Of a stretch of DNA of 64,000 bases, positions 2,971 through 17,643 are shown piece after piece. The DNA is from Ramlibacter lithotrophicus (GTDB lineage: Bacteria; Pseudomonadota; Gammaproteobacteria; Burkholderiales; Burkholderiaceae_C): contig NZ_VTOX01000008.1 of assembly GCF_012184415.1 (NCBI RefSeq), positions 1 to 64,000 on the forward strand, in the 5' to 3' direction. A program made the position numbers and the translations under genes. Within the stretch, counting starts at the first letter, position 1. Each line of letters starts with the position of its first letter. The notes beneath the pieces are model-generated. The model worked only from the letters and a program-made list of their open reading frames with translations. It was not told the DNA's origin and did not search any database.

Positions 2971-3528
2971 ATGCAGCTCGTACGCCCAACCGAAGACCAT
3001 CTTCCCAGCTACCTTGCCGCGCTCAAGGCCGGCTGGTCGCCCAACAACGAGCGCGGACTTGCCGCGTCACTGGAAGAGATCGCGCTCATCGAGGCCGACG
3101 CGGGCGCGTTCGTGCGTTCGCTCGACAACCGGGAAGGCCAGGGCTTGCCCGTCGCCATGCCCGATGGGTCGACCGTTCCCCGGCTGCCGGGGCTTCGGCT
3201 GTGGATGTGGGACGGCGAGTTCGCCGGGAGCATAGGCTTCCGGTGGCAGCACGGAACGACGGAACTGCCGCCGTACTGCCTTGGGCATATCGGCTATTCG
3301 GTCGTCCCATGGAAGCAGCGCCGCGGCTATGCGACGGCAGCCCTGCTTGGCATGCTGGACGAAGCGCGCCTGATGGGAATGCCGTACGTGGAGCTCACGG
3401 CCGACCCGGACAACATCGCATCGCAGAAGGTCATCCTGGCCGCCGGCGGCACGCTGCACGAGCGATTCATCAAGCCGCCGCAGTTCGGCAGCAAGCCATG
3501 CCTGCGCTTCCGCATCGCCTTGCGGTGA
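2971..3528 (+). CDS. GNAT-family N-acetyltransferase
   Basis: This 185-residue protein has the GNAT core: LRLWMWDGEFAGSIGFRW, then HIGYSVVPWKQRRGYATAAL, where the RRGYAT segment is the acetyl-CoA loop, and ELTADPDNIASQKVILAAGG. It resembles the broad predicted-acetyltransferase group (COG3981-like), whose substrates are mostly unknown. ATG 2971 is used; a GTG at 2959 in the same frame overlaps the previous stop and would add four residues. It lies next to the SnoaL-like gene and is followed head-on by an IS110 remnant that ends about 12 bases past its stop. Confidence 0.85.
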   Translation: MQLVRPTEDHLPSYLAALKAGWSPNNERGLAASLEEIALIEADAGAFVRSLDNREGQGLPVAMPDGSTVPRLPGLRLWMWDGEFAGSIGFRWQHGTTELPPYCLGHIGYSVVPWKQRRGYATAALLGMLDEARLMGMPYVELTADPDNIASQKVILAAGGTLHERFIKPPQFGSKPCLRFRIALR

Positions 3529-3539
3529 GGAGCGCATGC

Positions 3540-3782
3540 AACGGCGCACATGTCTGGGGGCAGCAAACGAACCGCAATGCCTGGGCCGGCCAGCCATCGG
3601 GCTCAGTCGTGCGCCGAGCCGCACGCCTCCAGGAAGACCAGCTTCACGGCGCGGGCGGCAAAGAAGCGTTCAAACCGACGCCGGGTCAACCGGTGCGTGC
3701 GCACGATCTTCCACTGATCATCCGCCCCAGCCGGCGGGAAGACAGCATTTGCCAAATCGACGGCAACGGTCGTAGCATCCAT
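3540..3782 (-). mobile_element. IS110-family transposase, truncated and stopped
   Basis: On the minus strand an ATG at 3782 opens MDATTVAVDLANAVF, then WKIVRTHRLTRRRFERFF, VKLVFLEACGSAHD: the N-terminal half of the RuvC-like DEDD catalytic domain of IS110 transposases, with the first acidic residue in VAVDLA. A TGA at 3603-3605 replaces the expected Trp codon of the family's H-W-A-R-W segment. After it the same frame continues ARWLAGPGIAVRLLPPDM and then loses similarity near 3540, at the edge of the GNAT gene. About 75% of the transposase is missing. The non-coding start of the element may extend to about 3815. Confidence 0.8.
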
Positions 3783-10431: not shown

Positions 10432-12177
10432 TCAGAACCGCATCTCCATGTCCTGCGCCATGAGCCAGAAGTTCGCCGCCGTCACCAGCGCGAAGAACGC
10501 CAGCAGCGGCAGCAACCTGAGGCGGGTAGCGACGCCGCCGCTGGCGGGCAGCAGGCGGCGCGCCTGGTAGCGGGCGATCTGCACCGCCAGCCAGAAACCC
10601 AGCACCATCAGGCCGGCCTGGATCGTGAACGTCACGTTCTCGGGCATCACCACGGCCATCATCAGGTCGTGGCGTTCGGTGCTGGTCAGGGGCCTGGCGC
10701 CGAGGCCGAACGGGTTGGCGATCACGCGCAGCACGTCGCCGCCTTCGCGCAGCAGGTGGTCCATGTTGTGCGCGAGGTGATAGGCGAAAGCGAGCGGCAG
10801 GGCGGTGAAGGCGAAGCCGCCGAACAGCTTGCGGTAGGACGCGGCGCCTTGCCCGCCGACGTTGGCCAGCGCGATCATGGCCCCGTACAACGCGACCGGC
10901 AGCGCGGACGAAGCGACCATGCCGGCCGCGAAGCTCAGGAACAGGTGTCCCGTTTCGCCGATGGCGGTGCCCATCGTCACCACCCACTCCGACCACTGCG
11001 GGATCATCGTGATGCCGTGGAAGCTGGTGATTCCCAGCAGCGCCAGCATGAACCAGGCGGCGTCCCAGCCAGGCGTGCCGGTTTTCCTGGCCTCGGTGTC
11101 CAGTGTGCGCAGCCGCCAGGACACGTTCTTCTCGGGGCAGCTCAGCACGCAGTTGCCGCACGACAGGCAGAAGGTGTTCTCGCTGAAGCGGCCGACCACC
11201 AGGCGGCTGGGGCAGGGCTCGATGGTCTCCGAGCCGTGGTAGCACTCCATGGTCTTGCAGCCGTCGCAGGTGGACTGGGCGATGGGGCGCACGGCGATCG
11301 GCGACAGCCGCGAATAGAAACCTACGGTGCGGCCGACGGGGCAGGCGTAGCGGCAGAAGGCCTTGCGCTCGAACACCAGCAGGAACACGACCGACAGCAC
11401 CAGCATGACGATGCCGAGCGCCGCCGTCAGCAGTGGCTTGCCGGTGACGCCGGCGCCCAGCTCCAGCCAGCTCAGGCCCATGAACATCAGCAGCGCGATC
11501 CACACGTTCTGCAGGGCGCGCGGCACCTTCAGGTTCAGGCCCGGGTGCGGCGTGACCCGCTTCCACCAGCTGCGGCGCACGATCCAGTTGGCCAGCGTGT
11601 CCCAGGGGCAGACGGCGCACCAGGCCGAGCCGATGAAGAACACCGCGACGATCACCAGCGGCCACCAGATGTTCCACACGAAGGCGGTGGCGATGTTGTG
11701 CTCGGGATGGACGGTGCCGAAGAAGCCTGCCGCGATCACCACCAGGAAAACGCTCACGGAGGCCAGGCGCGCCGCGAGCAGCGGATAAGGACTGCCGTTC
11801 AGGAAGCGAACGAGGCGGCCGACGAGCGGCATGCGCGCGAGATTCCAGCTGCGCGGCGGCGCGTCGCTGGCCGGGCGGGCCAGCAGCGACCACAACGCGA
11901 TGAGGGCCATCACGATGGCGGCGGCCTGGATCCATTCGCCGGGCAGGCCGGGATGGATCATCACGTTTTCGGCGTCCGCGCCGGCTTCGTCGGCGCTCGC
12001 TGCGGCCGGCGCGGGGGTGCCCTGGTCCGGCGGGACGTCGGCTGCCGGACCGGCGGCCTGCTCCGCGGGCGCGGCGATCGTCGGCACGCCGTGTTCGTTG
12101 GTTCCGTGCGCGGTCGCCGGTCCCCACCAGGCCGCCGCCACGGACAGTACGCACGCGAGAATGATTCGCTTGGGCAT
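10432..12177 (-). CDS. Membrane polyferredoxin (NapH/NosR/CcoG-like electron carrier)
   Basis: This 581-residue protein has a signal or anchor helix, a His/Ala-rich periplasmic stretch of about 70 residues, then several transmembrane helices. Its iron-sulphur motifs are WCAVCPWDTL, CRYACPVGRTVGFYSRL, CDGCKTMECYHG and CLSCGNCVLSCPEKN; the last is a classical 4Fe-4S ferredoxin pattern. CxxxCP pairs in loops are typical of NapH and NosR, which move electrons from quinol across the membrane. The FMN domain of NosR is absent. Its gene is divergent from chrA and near the octaheme reductase, so supplying that enzyme is a reasonable inference. The start at 12177 gives a proper signal peptide. Confidence 0.8.
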   Translation of the reverse strand: MPKRIILACVLSVAAAWWGPATAHGTNEHGVPTIAAPAEQAAGPAADVPPDQGTPAPAAASADEAGADAENVMIHPGLPGEWIQAAAIVMALIALWSLLARPASDAPPRSWNLARMPLVGRLVRFLNGSPYPLLAARLASVSVFLVVIAAGFFGTVHPEHNIATAFVWNIWWPLVIVAVFFIGSAWCAVCPWDTLANWIVRRSWWKRVTPHPGLNLKVPRALQNVWIALLMFMGLSWLELGAGVTGKPLLTAALGIVMLVLSVVFLLVFERKAFCRYACPVGRTVGFYSRLSPIAVRPIAQSTCDGCKTMECYHGSETIEPCPSRLVVGRFSENTFCLSCGNCVLSCPEKNVSWRLRTLDTEARKTGTPGWDAAWFMLALLGITSFHGITMIPQWSEWVVTMGTAIGETGHLFLSFAAGMVASSALPVALYGAMIALANVGGQGAASYRKLFGGFAFTALPLAFAYHLAHNMDHLLREGGDVLRVIANPFGLGARPLTSTERHDLMMAVVMPENVTFTIQAGLMVLGFWLAVQIARYQARRLLPASGGVATRLRLLPLLAFFALVTAANFWLMAQDMEMRF

Positions 12178-12429: not shown

Positions 12430-13671
12430 TTGACAGCCACCCCGCCCGTCGCCAGCCCTGACGCGCACGCCGCGACGCCGGCGCAACCGGTCCGGGGCAC
12501 GCCGCTGGAGGTGCTGCTCGCCTTCCTGCGCCTCGGGCTGACCTCGTTCGGCGGACCCGTGGCCCACCTCGGCTACTTCCGCACCGAGTTCGTCGAGCGC
12601 CGGCGCTGGCTGGACGACCGCAGTTATTCCGACCTGGTCGCCCTGTGCCAGTTCCTGCCCGGGCCGGCCAGCAGCCAGGTCGGGATGGCGCTGGGCCTGT
12701 CGCGGGCGGGCTGGGCCGGCGCGCCGATGGCGTGGCTGGGTTTCACGCTGCCTTCCGCCTTCGTGCTGATCGCCTTTGCGTACGGCATCGCGCGCTGGGG
12801 CGGCCTCGCCGCATCGGGCGCCGTGCAGGGATTGAAGGTGGCCGCCGTCGCCGTCGTGGCGCAGGCCGTGTGGGGCATGGCCAAGTCGCTGTGCCCGGAC
12901 CGCGCGCGCGCCGGGCTGGCGATCTTCGCCGCGCTGCTCACCTTGGCGCTGCCGTCGGCGATCGGGCAGGTCGGCGCGATCCTCGCCTGCGGGCTGGTCG
13001 GCTGGCGGCTGGTCCGGGTGCCGCACCAGCAGCCGATGGCCCATGCCGGGTATCGCGTCCCGCGCGGCGCCGGCGTGGCCGCACTGACGCTGCTGCTGGT
13101 ACTGCTGGCAGGCCTGCCCGTCATCGCCACTGCGACCGGCTCGGCGCTGTGGGCGCTGGTCGACGGCTTCTACCGCGCCGGCGCGCTGGTCTTCGGCGGC
13201 GGCCACGTCGTGCTGCCGCTGTTGCAGGCGACGGTGGTGCCGGGCGGCGCGGTGAGCAATGCCGACTTCCTGGCGGGATACGGTGCGGCGCAGGCCGTGC
13301 CTGGCCCGCTCTTCACGTTCGCCGCCTACCTCGGCACCGTGGCGGACAGCCCGCTGCAAGGCTGGACCGGCGGCCTGGTGTTCCTGGTGGTGATCTTCGT
13401 GCCGGCCTTCCTGCTGCTGGTGGCCGCCTTGCCGTTCTGGGACGAGCTGCGCCAGCGCGACGCGGTGCAGTCGGCAATGGCCGGCGTCAACGCCGGGGTG
13501 GTCGGCATCCTGCTGTCGGCGCTGTACGACCCGGTGTGGACCAGCGCGATCCATGGCCGCGCGGAATTCGGCATCGCGCTGGCAGCGTTCGGGCTGCTGG
13601 TGTACGCGCGGCTGTCCCCGGTGTTCGTGGTGGCGCTGTCGGCCGCGGCGGGGTGGGCGCTGCTCGGATAA
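12430..13671 (+). CDS. chrA: ChrA-type chromate/anion permease
   Basis: This 413-residue protein carries the two homologous halves of long CHR transporters: LTSFGGPVAHLGYF with LCQFLPGPASSQ in the first, and FYRAGALVFGGGHVVLPLL with GYGAAQAVPGPLFTFAAYLG in the second. ChrA proteins export chromate; some relatives have other roles. No ATG precedes the first FGGP motif, so a TTG at 12430 behind GGAG (12417-12420) is taken as the start. It lies between the polyferredoxin and the octaheme reductase, an unusual neighbour that may or may not be functional. Confidence 0.85.
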   Translation: MTATPPVASPDAHAATPAQPVRGTPLEVLLAFLRLGLTSFGGPVAHLGYFRTEFVERRRWLDDRSYSDLVALCQFLPGPASSQVGMALGLSRAGWAGAPMAWLGFTLPSAFVLIAFAYGIARWGGLAASGAVQGLKVAAVAVVAQAVWGMAKSLCPDRARAGLAIFAALLTLALPSAIGQVGAILACGLVGWRLVRVPHQQPMAHAGYRVPRGAGVAALTLLLVLLAGLPVIATATGSALWALVDGFYRAGALVFGGGHVVLPLLQATVVPGGAVSNADFLAGYGAAQAVPGPLFTFAAYLGTVADSPLQGWTGGLVFLVVIFVPAFLLLVAALPFWDELRQRDAVQSAMAGVNAGVVGILLSALYDPVWTSAIHGRAEFGIALAAFGLLVYARLSPVFVVALSAAAGWALLG

Positions 13672-13784: not shown

Positions 13785-13826
13785 TTGACGGCCATCAAAC
13801 TTGAGCTTTTTGCTCATTCACAGAAT
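13785..13826 (+). promoter_or_regulatory. FNR/DNR-type box and -10 of the octaheme reductase gene
   Basis: TTGAC-GGCC-ATCAA at 13785-13798 matches the TTGAT-N4-ATCAA consensus at 9 of 10 positions. Its centre (13791.5) is 41.5 bases from a start near 13833, and CAGAAT at 13821-13826 sits where the -10 should be. This is class II activator geometry. The 5' untranslated region would be about 107 bases. The regulator at 16367-17074 carries the ExxSR recognition motif that reads this box. Confidence 0.7.
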
Positions 13827-13939
13827 CCAGTTGACCTCGGGGATTTTCCCCTTGCGGCGCCCGTGCCGCCACCTCGGCGGCGGAGGATTCCCGGCCGCAA
13901 GAGGACAGAACCCCGATCGCGATCAACAGGAGAAGAAGC

Positions 13940-15655
13940 ATGTTTCGTTGGTTCGGTTCCTCATTCTGGCGGGCCATGCTCGGCCTGGCGGCGGCGCTGG
14001 CGCTGCTGGCCGGCGCCCCGGCCGCTTATGCGCAGAAAGCCAAGGCCTACAACGCCAAGGACTGCTACGAGTGCCACGAGGCGATCCAGGAGTTCCACGA
14101 GAAGAGCCAGCACAAGTCGGTGGGCTGCGACTCCTGCCACAGCGGCCTGGAGGCGCACCGCAAAGCCGGCAAGGGCCGTCCGGTGACCAACAACGATCCT
14201 GCCAGTTGCGGCAACTGCCACAAGAACCAGTTCCGCACCATGTACACCATGAACACGGAGAAGGCGGCGCACAAGGAAAAGGCCGTCGCCGCCGGCGGGG
14301 CGCTGGACAAGGCGCTGGCGCCGCACGGCTTCACGCGCGAGCACAACGAGCCGAGATCGCATGCCTTCGCGCTGTATGACCAGCTGGTGGTCGACCGGGC
14401 GTTCGGTGGCCGGTTCGTCAACAAGGAAGGCCGCGCCGGGCTCACCCGCATGGGCGGAAACTTCAGGATCTGGGACGTGCTGAAGGACGAATTCCCGGGC
14501 GAGCCGCACAAGGCGTTCAAGCCGGGCACGGCCGCCGCGGCCAACCCGGTGTGCATGTCGTGCAAGACGTCCGACCACATCCTCGACTGGGCGTACATGG
14601 GCGACCCGAAGCCCGAAGCGAAGTGGAGCCGCCTGTCCAAGGTGAACGAGTTCGTCAAGGACACCAACCACGCGCTCAACTGCAACTTCTGCCACGACCC
14701 GCACAGCGCCGGGCCGCGCATCATCCGCGACGGCCTGATCCAGGCCCTGTCGCGCCCCGAAAAGGACACGCTGTGGCACAAGGACCCCAAGGGCGCCAAG
14801 ATCGAGATCAAGGAGCTGGGCGAGCGCGGCTTCACGCGCAAGATCGCGACGCTCAGCCGCTATGACGCCAAGCTGCAGTGCGCGCAGTGCCACGTCGAAT
14901 ACAACTGCAATCCCGGGTTCGATCCGGTCACCGGCCAGGCCATCGGCATGGACGACCAGCGGACCAACCACTTCCCGCTCAAGAGCGTGAACGACATCGG
15001 CCAGCACTACAAGGACCTGCGGTTCGGCGACTTCAAGCACGCCGTCACCGGCGCCACCCTGTGGAAGGGCCAGCACCCGGACGTGGAGGTGTTCTACAAC
15101 AGCGTCCACCAGAAGCAGGGGGCGGACTGCGCGACCTGCCACATGCCCAAGGCCAAGGACCCGAAGACCGGCAAGCAGTACACGTCGCACTGGCAGACCT
15201 CGCCGCGCCACTACGTCAAGGACGCGTGCCTGGGTTGCCACAAGAGCTGGACGGAGAAGCAGGCGCTCTACAGCATCGACTCGCTGAAGAACAAGTGGGT
15301 GGGCAAGATGCGCAAGGCCGAGTTCTGGCTGACCCGGCTGATCGACAAGTACGAGGCGGCGCAGAACATGGGCGTGGAACCCGCCGTGCTGGCGGAAGCG
15401 CGGACCAAGCACTCCGAGGCCCATATCCACTGGGAGTTCTGGTCGGCCGCCAACGGCGGGCACTTCCACAACCCGCAGCAGTTCGAGGAATCCATCAACA
15501 AGGGCATGACGATCTCGCAGGCTGGTATCAAGCTGCTGGACGACGCGATGGCCAAGCGCCGCGCGCAGGGCTCGGCAAGCGCCGCGCCGGCTCCGGCTGC
15601 AGCCGCGGCCGGCCCCGCCGCCATGGTGCCGGTGGCCGCGCCGGCGGCGAAGTAG
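13940..15655 (+). CDS. Octaheme cytochrome c nitrite reductase (ONR type)
   Basis: This 571-residue periplasmic protein has a signal peptide cleaved after AYA (about residue 31). Heme sites are CxxCH at 42, 63, 90, 248, 314, 397 and 430 and CxxCK at 205: seven plus one lysine-ligated heme, the fourth in order, as in the Thioalkalivibrio octaheme reductase. NrfA has only five. Tyr321 and Cys323 in HVEYNC match the Tyr-x-Cys pair that is covalently linked in that enzyme, and His379 lies 58 residues on, the spacing of its active-site His. It would reduce nitrite to ammonia in six electrons, and probably hydroxylamine or sulphite. The C-terminal Ala/Pro-rich tail (about 545-571) is dispensable-looking. 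GGAG precedes the ATG. Confidence 0.9.
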   Translation: MFRWFGSSFWRAMLGLAAALALLAGAPAAYAQKAKAYNAKDCYECHEAIQEFHEKSQHKSVGCDSCHSGLEAHRKAGKGRPVTNNDPASCGNCHKNQFRTMYTMNTEKAAHKEKAVAAGGALDKALAPHGFTREHNEPRSHAFALYDQLVVDRAFGGRFVNKEGRAGLTRMGGNFRIWDVLKDEFPGEPHKAFKPGTAAAANPVCMSCKTSDHILDWAYMGDPKPEAKWSRLSKVNEFVKDTNHALNCNFCHDPHSAGPRIIRDGLIQALSRPEKDTLWHKDPKGAKIEIKELGERGFTRKIATLSRYDAKLQCAQCHVEYNCNPGFDPVTGQAIGMDDQRTNHFPLKSVNDIGQHYKDLRFGDFKHAVTGATLWKGQHPDVEVFYNSVHQKQGADCATCHMPKAKDPKTGKQYTSHWQTSPRHYVKDACLGCHKSWTEKQALYSIDSLKNKWVGKMRKAEFWLTRLIDKYEAAQNMGVEPAVLAEARTKHSEAHIHWEFWSAANGGHFHNPQQFEESINKGMTISQAGIKLLDDAMAKRRAQGSASAAPAPAAAAAGPAAMVPVAAPAAK

Positions 15656-15656
15656 C

Positions 15657-16340
15657 ATGGCCGCGCCCTCCGCGTCGCTGCTCCGGCTCGCCGCCACTGG
15701 TGCGCGGCGCTCCGGGCTGCGCCGGGGTGTGGCGCTGGCGGGGCTCGCGCTCGCGGCCGCCGCCATGGTCCTCGTGCAACGCGAGGGCGCTGCCGGGGCG
15801 GATGTCCAGGACGCCAGCGCGCTGGCGCTGGAAGTCGAACGCGCATTGCAGGCCCAGGCTGGGCCACTGGTGCCCGGCAATCTCTACGCGCAGCTGGAAC
15901 TGCAGTTGCAGCGCCATCCAGACGACGTTCGGGCGCTGGTCCTCAAGGCCCGGCTCGACATGGAGGCGCAACGCGTCGAGCTGGCGGCGGCCGGCTACGA
16001 GAAGGCGCTGGGCCTGCCGAACTCCAAGGCCGTGCGCGACCCCGACGTCTGGGCCGAGTACGCCGAGGCGGTCGGCATGCAACAGGGCGGCACGCTGGCG
16101 GGAAGACCGATGGAGCTGGTCGACAAGGCGCTGGCGCTCGATCCGCGGCATGCGACGGCGCTGGACCTTGCAGGCAGCGCGGCCTGGGAGGCGAAGGACT
16201 TCGCCGGCGCCGCGGCCCACTGGAAACGCCTGCTCGAGCGGCTGCCCGGCGGGACCGCGCGCCACGGCGAACTCACGGCGGCCATTCGCGCCGCGGAGCA
16301 GCGTGCCAGGCTGGCACTGCCTGCCGCCCGCAAGCCCTGA
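15657..16340 (+). CDS. NrfG/CcmI-like TPR protein, cytochrome maturation
   Basis: This 227-residue protein has one N-terminal membrane helix (about 24-40) followed by TPR repeats. The best is ALALDPRHATALDLAGSAAWEAKDFAGAAAHWKRLLERL, with the C-terminal form seen in NrfG and CcmH/CcmI proteins. These present apocytochromes to the heme lyase; NrfG helps heme attach to the CxxCK site. It begins 2 bases after the reductase stop, so the two are co-translated. No NrfE, NrfF or CcmF homologue is in the window, so the lyase must come from elsewhere. Confidence 0.75.
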   Translation: MAAPSASLLRLAATGARRSGLRRGVALAGLALAAAAMVLVQREGAAGADVQDASALALEVERALQAQAGPLVPGNLYAQLELQLQRHPDDVRALVLKARLDMEAQRVELAAAGYEKALGLPNSKAVRDPDVWAEYAEAVGMQQGGTLAGRPMELVDKALALDPRHATALDLAGSAAWEAKDFAGAAAHWKRLLERLPGGTARHGELTAAIRAAEQRARLALPAARKP

Positions 16341-16366: not shown

Positions 16367-17074
16367 TCAGTTGCCCTTGCGCTCCGGCTCGCGCTTGCCC
16401 GCCGCGTTGGCCAGTTGCTGCAGGTCGCGCACCTCGATGCGCCGGCCCTTGACTTCCAGCAGGCCGTCGCTGGCCAGCTCGTGCAGGATGCGCGAGAAGT
16501 GTTCCGGCGTCAGGTGCAGGTGCGATGCGACGGCGGCCTTGGCCGCCGGCAGATGCACCAGGGCGGGCCCGGCGTCGGCGCCGGCGTTGCGCAGCAGGTA
16601 GTCGATCAGCCGGTCGCGGCCGCTGCCCATCGCCTGGCGCTCGGCCTCGTGCACCATCGCCTCGATGCGCTGCGCCAGCCCGGCGATCATGCGGCGCGCG
16701 AAGACCGGGTTGCGCTCGATCTCCTCGAACACGGCTTCCTTGGGCACGTGCAGCACCAGCGCGTCGGTGGCGGCCTCGGCATCGACCACCGCCGGCCGCT
16801 CCAGGAACATCACCGGCTCGCCGAAGGCGCGGCCCGCCCCCACCACGCCGGTGAGCCGCTCGCGCCCCGCGCGGCGCGCCAGCAGCCGGACCTCGCCATA
16901 CACGACCACGTACATGCCGGTGGGCAGGTCGCCCTTGCTGAACACGCGCTCGCCGCGCTTGAGGGAACGACGGGTGGTGACGGCGGCCAGGCGCGCCAGC
17001 CCGGCCTGGTCCAGCGCCTTGAACAGCGGCACCGCGGACAGGAAGACGCCGGGGGTGAGTTCAGGCCGCGCCAT
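16367..17074 (-). CDS. Crp/Fnr-family regulator, cysteine-free (DNR/NNR-like)
   Basis: This 235-residue protein has a cyclic-nucleotide-binding fold (about 15-130: VFSKGDLPTGMYVVVYGEVRLL, GRAFGEPVMFLERP), a long dimer helix and a C-terminal HTH (KAAVASHLHLTPEHFSRILHELASDGLLEV). The recognition helix reads E-H-F-S-R, the FNR/DNR ExxSR pattern for TTGAT half-sites. It contains no cysteine at all, so it cannot hold the FNR 4Fe-4S cluster and more probably senses NO through heme, as DNR does. Its 3' end faces the reductase operon. Confidence 0.85.
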   Translation of the reverse strand: MARPELTPGVFLSAVPLFKALDQAGLARLAAVTTRRSLKRGERVFSKGDLPTGMYVVVYGEVRLLARRAGRERLTGVVGAGRAFGEPVMFLERPAVVDAEAATDALVLHVPKEAVFEEIERNPVFARRMIAGLAQRIEAMVHEAERQAMGSGRDRLIDYLLRNAGADAGPALVHLPAAKAAVASHLHLTPEHFSRILHELASDGLLEVKGRRIEVRDLQQLANAAGKREPERKGN

Positions 17075-17136: not shown

Positions 17137-17643
17137 TCAGTGACCCAGGTGGATCGGCTTGAACCCCGGATGCTCGAAATAGCGTCCATAGTTGTTGACG
17201 GCGCTGGCCACCTTCACCAGCCCCTGTTCCGGCTTGGCCTTTTTCGCCTTGCCGGCCATCGCGTCGGTGCCGGCGCCGAGGTCGGCGATCACCAGGTGCA
17301 GCATGGCGTCGGCCTTCGGCTCCAGCTTGCAGTTGCCGACGATGCCGGCGACTTCATTTTCCACCTTGCCGGCCAGCGCCGCATAGTCCGCGGGCGACAG
17401 CTTGCCGGCGTGGGCGGCCGCCAGCTGCGGCTCCACCGCGTTGCGGATGCGCTCCATGCCGGTCCTCAGGGCCTCGTCGGTGCCCCACTTCTTGCCATGG
17501 TCCAGCGAGAGCCTGGCGGGCGCCGCGGCGTGGTGGTCGTGCTCGGCCTTGGCGCCGGCCGCGAGGGCCGGCGTGCTGGCCATCGCGAACGAAGCGGCCA
17601 CGGCGGCGGCCACGGCCAGGAGGTGCAGTTTCTGTGCGTTCAT
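17137..17643 (-). CDS. Periplasmic helical protein of the nitrite-reductase island, function unknown
   Basis: This 168-residue protein has a signal peptide ending ALAAG and a His-rich start (EHDHHAAAP). The helical body contains LRTGMERIRNAVE, LAGKVENEVAGIVGNCKLEPKADAMLHLVIADL and NNYGRYFEHPGFKPI. There is no CxxCH, so it is not a c-type cytochrome; the single cysteine lies in GNCKL. The GNCKLxPxADAMLHLV pattern also appears in proteins I recall as small partners next to Crp/Fnr genes, but I cannot name a function. A metal- or heme-binding periplasmic partner is possible. Its start is 63 bases beyond the regulator gene. Confidence 0.6.
   Translation of the reverse strand: MNAQKLHLLAVAAAVAASFAMASTPALAAGAKAEHDHHAAAPARLSLDHGKKWGTDEALRTGMERIRNAVEPQLAAAHAGKLSPADYAALAGKVENEVAGIVGNCKLEPKADAMLHLVIADLGAGTDAMAGKAKKAKPEQGLVKVASAVNNYGRYFEHPGFKPIHLGH

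Follow-up and report, generated by a model that had tools for sequence, protein, structure and literature searches.

An octaheme nitrite reductase gene paired with a TPR gene in Ramlibacter lithotrophicus, in a genome carrying genes for three other kinds of nitrite reductase

The window, i.e., the whole stretch of DNA analysed here (64,000 nucleotides, positions 1 to 64,000 of contig NZ_VTOX01000008.1 of Ramlibacter lithotrophicus), contains a gene for an octaheme cytochrome c nitrite reductase (ONR) immediately followed by a gene coding for a TPR protein. A gene for a Crp/Fnr-family regulator lies beyond the pair on the opposite strand, and a Crp/Fnr-type palindrome precedes the ONR gene:

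13785..13798, no strand assigned: Crp/Fnr-type palindrome TTGAC-GGCC-ATCAA, whose first base is 155 bases ahead of the ONR ATG
13940..15655, plus strand: ONR, 571 aa (heme motifs, active-site residues, PDB 2ot4, PF02335, tree)
15657..16340, plus strand: TPR protein of the CcmI/NrfG family, 227 aa (PF23914, NrfG 2e2e profile match, CcmI identity, linkage)
16367..17074, minus strand: Crp/Fnr-family regulator devoid of cysteine (PF00027, PF13545)

The ONR gene starts with an ATG codon preceded by AGGAG at 13928-13932, and its product bears, as judged by eye, an N-terminal signal peptide and an alanine/proline-rich C-terminal tail of about 30 residues. Eight heme-binding motifs were found at residues 42 (CYECH), 63 (CDSCH), 90 (CGNCH), 205 (CMSCK), 248 (CNFCH), 314 (CAQCH), 397 (CATCH) and 430 (CLGCH), hence three CxxCH, one CxxCK and four CxxCH, and a fourth-place CxxCK among seven CxxCH is the ONR pattern according to the available part of a 2023 survey (PMC10716430). 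Residue shuffling of the protein (2000 times) yielded at most one CxxCH, with a mean of 0.026, so the motif set does not result from chance; moreover, no other stop-to-stop frame of the window longer than 80 aa contains a CxxCH. Y321 and C323 directly follow heme site 6, H379 lies in a GQHP stretch between sites 6 and 7, and K376-G-Q378-H379 matches the KxQH motif described as calcium-dependent (PMC11972089, in excerpt). A Tyr-Cys bond is known in the ONR family, as excerpts of a 2025 review state (PMC12285233). Counted along the phmmer alignment, R153, K209, Y321, C323, Q378 and H379 correspond respectively to R131, K188, Y303, C305, Q360 and H361 of PDB entry 2ot4. R131, K188 and Q360 are active-site residues of that enzyme. 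The motif scan of the translation thereby recovers what the first-pass annotation had noticed, namely seven CxxCH with a CxxCK as fourth heme and a Tyr321/Cys323 pair right after the sixth site. Likewise, its Tyr303/Cys305/His361 numbering for the Thioalkalivibrio enzyme, with His379 at the same spacing, fits the 2ot4 alignment, which pairs these very residues.

Searching the PDB with phmmer retrieved nine ONR sequences at E values of 1.3e-142 to 1.6e-147, including 2ot4 (1.6e-147), the Thioalkalivibrio nitratireducens enzyme TvNiR, and 8rv0 (1.3e-142), the Trichlorobacter ONR, while the best NrfA chain reached 1.8e-22. PF02335 matched at 177.8 bits. Pentaheme NrfA does not fit a protein with eight sites that scores 111.2 bits with PRK11125 (cut-off 595) and 92.7 bits with TIGR03152 (cut-off 692.5), although these cut-offs alone are indecisive since the genome's own NrfA scores 255.5 and 197.5 bits, respectively. 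We also generated a tree of 104 rows by a quick method, made of ONR sequences and 12 NrfA rows, with HAO and OTR left out and some rows representing one gene fetched twice; two same-genus ONRs, G434 and G401, coincide with L004 and L005, respectively (identical or at zero branch length). All 12 NrfA rows fall on one side of a branch with a support of 100 and the window protein lies among the ONRs, within a three-row set (support 98) and a seven-row set (support 99). The phylogeny that had been suggested as a check consequently groups the protein with ONR and apart from NrfA, and heme motifs, PDB ranking and model scans agree with the initial separation of ONR from five-heme NrfA and from hydroxylamine oxidoreductase (HAO). 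Despite the eight hemes that HAO and octaheme tetrathionate reductase (OTR) also have, membership in either can be discounted almost entirely on sequence, given that no Pfam, NCBIfam or PDB match to HAO and no match to the OTR model TIGR04315 appeared at 1e-3, that no HAO or OTR chain occurred among the 22 distinct PDB sequences at E<=1e-3, and that the genome encodes a separate OTR-family protein scoring 574.5 bits against a cut-off of 375.

Judged from its sequence, the protein is thus an ordinary member of the already known ONR family. It shares with TvNiR the eight heme motifs, CxxCK at heme 4 and the Tyr/Cys/Gln/His active site; it differs by its betaproteobacterial host and by its alanine/proline-rich tail, and may also differ by its downstream TPR gene. 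The ONR gene of Trichlorobacter is located after nap genes, whereas ONR and napA of Ramlibacter reside on separate contigs and ONR is paired with the TPR gene; T. lovleyi is also reported to carry ONR and pentaheme NrfA together (PMC11972089, in excerpt). ONR and the pentaheme NrfA of NrfHA have in common a five-heme domain at the C-terminus and a Y-x-C adjoining the CAQCH site, yet the genome's own NrfA carries five CxxCH without any CxxCK, is accompanied by a NrfH of its own and branches separately in the tree.

Of 326 relatives found, 80 were kept, which with the window makes 81 loci. The plain eight-site pattern is present in 66 of these 81 loci and seven plain sites in the other 15. Thirteen loci showed only seven sites by plain scan (L045, L046, L050, L057, L061, L064, L068, L073 and L075-L079); heme 8 is CX4CH in the five that were inspected (L045, L046, L057, L061 and L075), and the L050 ONR is cut by a contig end. 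Heme 1 is CX3CH in L022, and heme 3 is CX4CH in L034.

Within the genus, ONR was detected in 4 of 60 genomes and NrfA matches in 8, two of which are broken or in pieces (G403 with one internal stop, G401 in pieces). A draw of 399 genomes from the family, with three candidates scored per genome, gave two with ONR (the host genome and G050) and two with a NrfA match (the host genome and G126). Since 36 of the 80 kept relatives bear Burkholderiales or Betaproteobacteria record titles, ONR is an established enzyme of the order, though a rare one within the genus. Gammaproteobacteria in GTDB include the Burkholderiales. The available part of the 2023 survey reports onr in 14 bacterial phyla with Gammaproteobacteria among the dominant groups, as well as nrfA and onr together in 12 assemblies among 1218 (PMC10716430); pentaheme NrfA accompanies ONR in 3 of the 50 ONR-bearing genomes that we checked out of the 80 (L005, in pieces, L027 and L053). 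The first-pass annotation correctly guessed a betaproteobacterial host, and its view that such an enzyme is not usually expected there holds for the genus (4/60) and the family draw (2/399) but not for the order, considering the 36 titled relatives and the survey. Neither an ONR in Ramlibacter nor an ONR-linked TPR gene is mentioned in the titles and abstract openings returned by our literature searches.

The host genome is rich in nitrogen-oxide enzymes. NapA, NarG, NapC and NosZ all score over their cut-offs, as do two copies of NirK, and the best PDB match of NirS is a NirS-type nitrite reductase at 3.1e-255. The NO reductase (756 aa) has long single-chain forms as best PDB matches and was therefore called qNor. 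NrfH, over its cut-off, is encoded beside a NrfA with five CxxCH. In the genus draw, full-length NirS occurs in 7 of 59 genomes (a count that omits G412, whose match is in two pieces), NirK over the cut-off in 22 of 59 and NosZ in 7 of 59. Among about 60 genomes, the host alone combines NirS, NirK, NrfA and ONR, and one other, G401, has three of these four types (its NrfA being in pieces). If the frequencies were independent, about 0.02 of 60 genomes would be expected to have all four, a value that serves only as a yardstick given that the genomes were picked by relatedness.

Such a set could be the artefact of a mixed assembly, considering that ONR (4/60) and NrfA (8/60) are uncommon in the genus and that two of the three other ONR-bearing genus genomes are in hundreds of contigs. 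We regard this as very improbable. The assembly has a completeness of 100, a contamination of 0.18 and 24 contigs; NrfHA, NirS, NapA and qNor share one 1.28-Mb contig while one NirK, NarG and NosZ share one of 0.78 Mb, ONR and the second NirK being on two further contigs. The five nitrite reductase genes also have similar GC3 values (0.93-0.95; 0.90-0.93 for three window genes and 0.86 for the TPR gene), and ONR and NrfA each branch with same-genus copies.

Several of these loci have features of their own. The NrfHA genes (L002:1486-3003 and 3018-3725, minus strand, contig C1) encode a NrfA whose active-site heme motif is CxxCH instead of CxxCK; NrfA with five CxxCH was also found in L136-L141 from the same genus, and L142, in pieces, has four. 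The nirS gene (L155:7108-10108, plus strand) is followed by a NirN/NirF-like gene and then by mutL- and dedA-like genes (by eye). No d1-heme synthesis genes were recognised in the 18 kb around nirS, so that NirS may be non-functional for lack of its cofactor pathway. The OTR-family cytochrome (L158:4067-5497, minus strand, contig C1; PDB 1sp3, 3.5e-100) is encoded near napA and napC and could act on nitrogen oxides as a third large multiheme enzyme. Region L153:305-3731 (minus strand), divergent from the ccm operon, codes for a NapC/NirT-type cytochrome, a small cytochrome c and a protein of 716 aa that has nine hemes and ends in a part resembling cytochrome b561, scoring below the cut-off of that family.

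The TPR gene starts one base after the ONR stop codon and its product likely has a membrane anchor (by eye). PF23914, the CcmI/CycH TPR model, matched at 46.7 bits (cut-off 42), the protein and the CcmI encoded elsewhere in the genome share 34% identity over 149 aa, and NrfG 2e2e was matched at 9.5e-12 by a profile built from 27 TPR copies, which scored higher with five designed proteins (four or more of these being TPR designs). The curated NrfG equivalog gave only 29 bits against a cut-off of 306. The protein consequently resembles the NrfG and CcmI chaperones as a TPR protein with a PF23914 score over the cut-off and a 2e2e profile match, but differs from NrfG in that its gene stands without adjoining nrfE and nrfF, neither of which was found among its scanned neighbours.

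Of 13 window neighbours compared to the 80 relative loci by tblastn (E<=1e-8), none matched except the TPR gene and, in 6 loci, the Crp/Fnr gene. The TPR gene flanks ONR in 36 of 40 loci of a Burkholderiales set (L004-L039, L042, L043, L051 and L083) versus none of the 41 other ONR loci, the set having been drawn by titles and similarity after the TPR-bearing loci were visible. Four of its members carry other titles (L019, L023, L035 and L043), yet fall within the set's 45-row clade, while L039 is outside. In 30 loci a copy is found at most 900 bases after ONR and in 11 one precedes ONR, which amounts to 36 different loci; those of the set without the gene are L004, where the contig ends soon after, L035, L039 and L051. 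Alignment of 27 copies (that of the window and 26 out of 29 complete copies that were extracted) revealed 20 invariant columns. In nine loci (L018, L029, L030, L031, L034, L036, L038, L043 and L083), ccm genes, named by eye, run into ONR. L007 may hold part of one.

No CxxCK protein other than ONR was seen in the genome, whose NrfA has five CxxCH. The CxxCK-containing NrfA of E. coli needs NrfEFG, with NrfG binding NrfA via its TPRs, while that of Shewanella needs CcmI, which together with CcmF appears sufficient, as far as excerpts of both sources tell (PMC12285233, PMC6976685). A dedicated NrfE for the CxxCK heme had been expected here. Of five PF01578 places found, four were scanned (L085 was left out) and a single one is a CcmF/NrfE-family lyase, two others matching CcmC and CcsB below the cut-off and the last having no match at 1e-20. 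The general ccm operon of the host, with CcmF and CcmI, is located on a contig other than that of ONR. Separately, region L159:4000-12000 on contig 4 has a large multiheme protein gene beside ResB-, CcsA-, CcmC- and TlpA-like genes and a TPR protein gene (partly by eye). It may be a second, System II-type maturation cluster serving its own cytochrome, and this ResB/CcsA cluster, its ResB recognised by eye, could also handle the ONR CxxCK instead of CcmF.

Based on its linkage and family, we propose the TPR protein as a putative ONR-specific apocytochrome chaperone for the CxxCK heme. It might instead be a redundant CcmI fragment kept by linkage only, with no ONR-specific role: it is a clear CcmI paralogue, ONR ends a ccm run in nine loci so that the pairing may be left over from such an arrangement, and where the gene is only upstream (6 of the 36 loci) it may simply be CcmI. 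We find this rather unlikely. TPR genes occur on both sides of ONR in five loci, hence the gene after ONR is there distinct from the one before it; the invariant columns point the same way, and the TPR gene was kept one base from ONR despite a full-length CcmI elsewhere in the genome.

The palindrome upstream of ONR is the single strict match to TTGAY-N4-RTCAA in the window, where 0.06 would be expected from dinucleotide shuffles. With start codons of our own choosing and excluding L021, L026 and L046 (less than 120 bases upstream), the 300 bases preceding ONR contain a strict box in 27 of the 38 Burkholderiales-set loci counted, versus 48 of 6348 random 300-base pieces of the set, and in 3 of 40 other ONR loci, versus 10 of 6572 random pieces; 11 and 37 loci, respectively, are without one. 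Four strict sites were found in 236.5 kb, that is, the window plus ten stretches chosen around nitrogen and heme genes rather than the whole genome: at ONR, nrfH, ccmA (by eye) and a DUF2249-qNor gene pair. The nrfH box is upstream only if translation starts at a GTG 66 codons into the ORF, and the NrfH model match begins at residue 89. No strict box accompanies nirS, nirK1 or nirK2, whose best sites have three, one and two mismatches, respectively, and there is none in the stretches holding nap and nos. As for the regulator, the product of 16367-17074 contains no cysteine and is therefore not an oxygen-sensing Fe-S FNR. It may control ONR, and a heme- or NO-sensing role of the DNR type is a guess. 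Crp/Fnr genes occur in the flanks of 11 of the 81 ONR loci, window included.

Taken together, we consider it likely that the gene encodes a periplasmic ONR reducing nitrite to ammonium under Crp/Fnr control, with heme 4 matured with the help of the TPR protein, and that it is one of several nitrite outlets of a host with genes for both ammonification and denitrification. As a member of its family the enzyme would be expected to assemble as a hexamer. Electrons would pass through the seven bis-His hemes to the lysine-ligated heme 4, where nitrite would be converted to ammonium in one six-electron step with protons from His379 and from Tyr321, probably cross-linked to Cys323. A Crp/Fnr-family regulator would turn on ONR at low oxygen or with nitrogen oxides, and NrfHA, the ccm heme-maturation operon and qNor would be induced together with it. 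Heme 4 would probably be attached at CxxCK by the general CcmF lyase and the downstream TPR protein, a stand-alone NrfG-like chaperone that would bring apo-ONR to CcmF.

Instead of respiratory ammonification, the enzyme could serve to detoxify nitrite, hydroxylamine, sulfite or peroxide, a use that we consider less probable but plausible. No quinol-dehydrogenase gene adjoins ONR in the window, a NrfHA with its own quinol dehydrogenase is already present in the genome, a strict Crp/Fnr-type box also precedes qNor, and ONRs are described as reducing hydroxylamine, sulfite and peroxide (PMC5433712, in excerpt). Against this, Nap and Nar are present to make nitrite, and nitrate ammonification in Trichlorobacter ammonificans is said to rely on ONR in the available text (PMC11972089); the same active site would serve either use.

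Building on the ammonium-forming ONR, a bolder reading may be put forward, tentatively and with somewhat more doubt than belief: Burkholderiales ONR and TPR would form a two-gene cassette in which the TPR chaperone retargets CcmF to CxxCK, present here with NirS, two NirK and NrfHA, and Crp/Fnr boxes shared by some of these genes and not by others would decide between nitrogen retention and loss. Such a cassette would be a variant of the CcmF-CcmI route of Shewanella NrfA, distinct from NrfEFG and NrfI. If so, four chemically different nitrite reductases would operate in one cell.

What is unusual, then, is the presence of ONR beside three other kinds of nitrite reductase and with a small TPR helper gene that may attach the special heme; an ONR-chaperone pair behind a Fnr-type box in a genome with four such kinds merits follow-up. 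Octaheme and pentaheme nitrite reductases that form ammonia coexist in some organisms, for reasons that the accessible part of the 2025 review calls unclear (PMC12285233). A strain with ONR, NrfHA, NirS and NirK could show, within a single cell, which enzyme directs nitrite towards ammonium and which towards N2O/N2, and the conserved ONR-TPR pair is a testable candidate for CxxCK heme attachment in ONR.

Other genes of the window were also considered. A NapH-like protein gene (10432-12171, minus strand), ChrA (12433-13671, plus strand), tartrate-type genes and further neighbours were dropped from the ONR system for want of a tblastn match in the 80 loci. The first of these codes for a membrane protein of 579 aa in which an iron-sulfur core of the NapH/NosR type is followed, as judged by eye, by a long additional C-terminus of several helices; its NapH match is weak (37.1 bits). 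The gene at 17137-17643 (minus strand), situated downstream of a LysR gene and adjacent to the Crp/Fnr gene on its upstream side and on its strand, encodes 168 aa that, by eye, likely include a signal peptide; neither Pfam nor NCBIfam matched the protein at 1e-3.

In the window, ONR has no gene for a redox partner beside it. Elsewhere, candidate electron donors encoded close to ONR are a membrane protein of about 700 aa in five loci (L008, L011, L027, L032 and L033) and a small one-heme cytochrome in six (L027, L032, L033, L039, L041 and L043), neither of which recurs in most ONR loci. In 16 loci (L010, L033, L040, L044, L048, L052 and ten more), of which two belong to the Burkholderiales set, a molybdoenzyme resembling NapA by eye is encoded close to ONR, reminiscent of the Nap-ONR arrangement reported in Trichlorobacter (PMC11972089, in excerpt).
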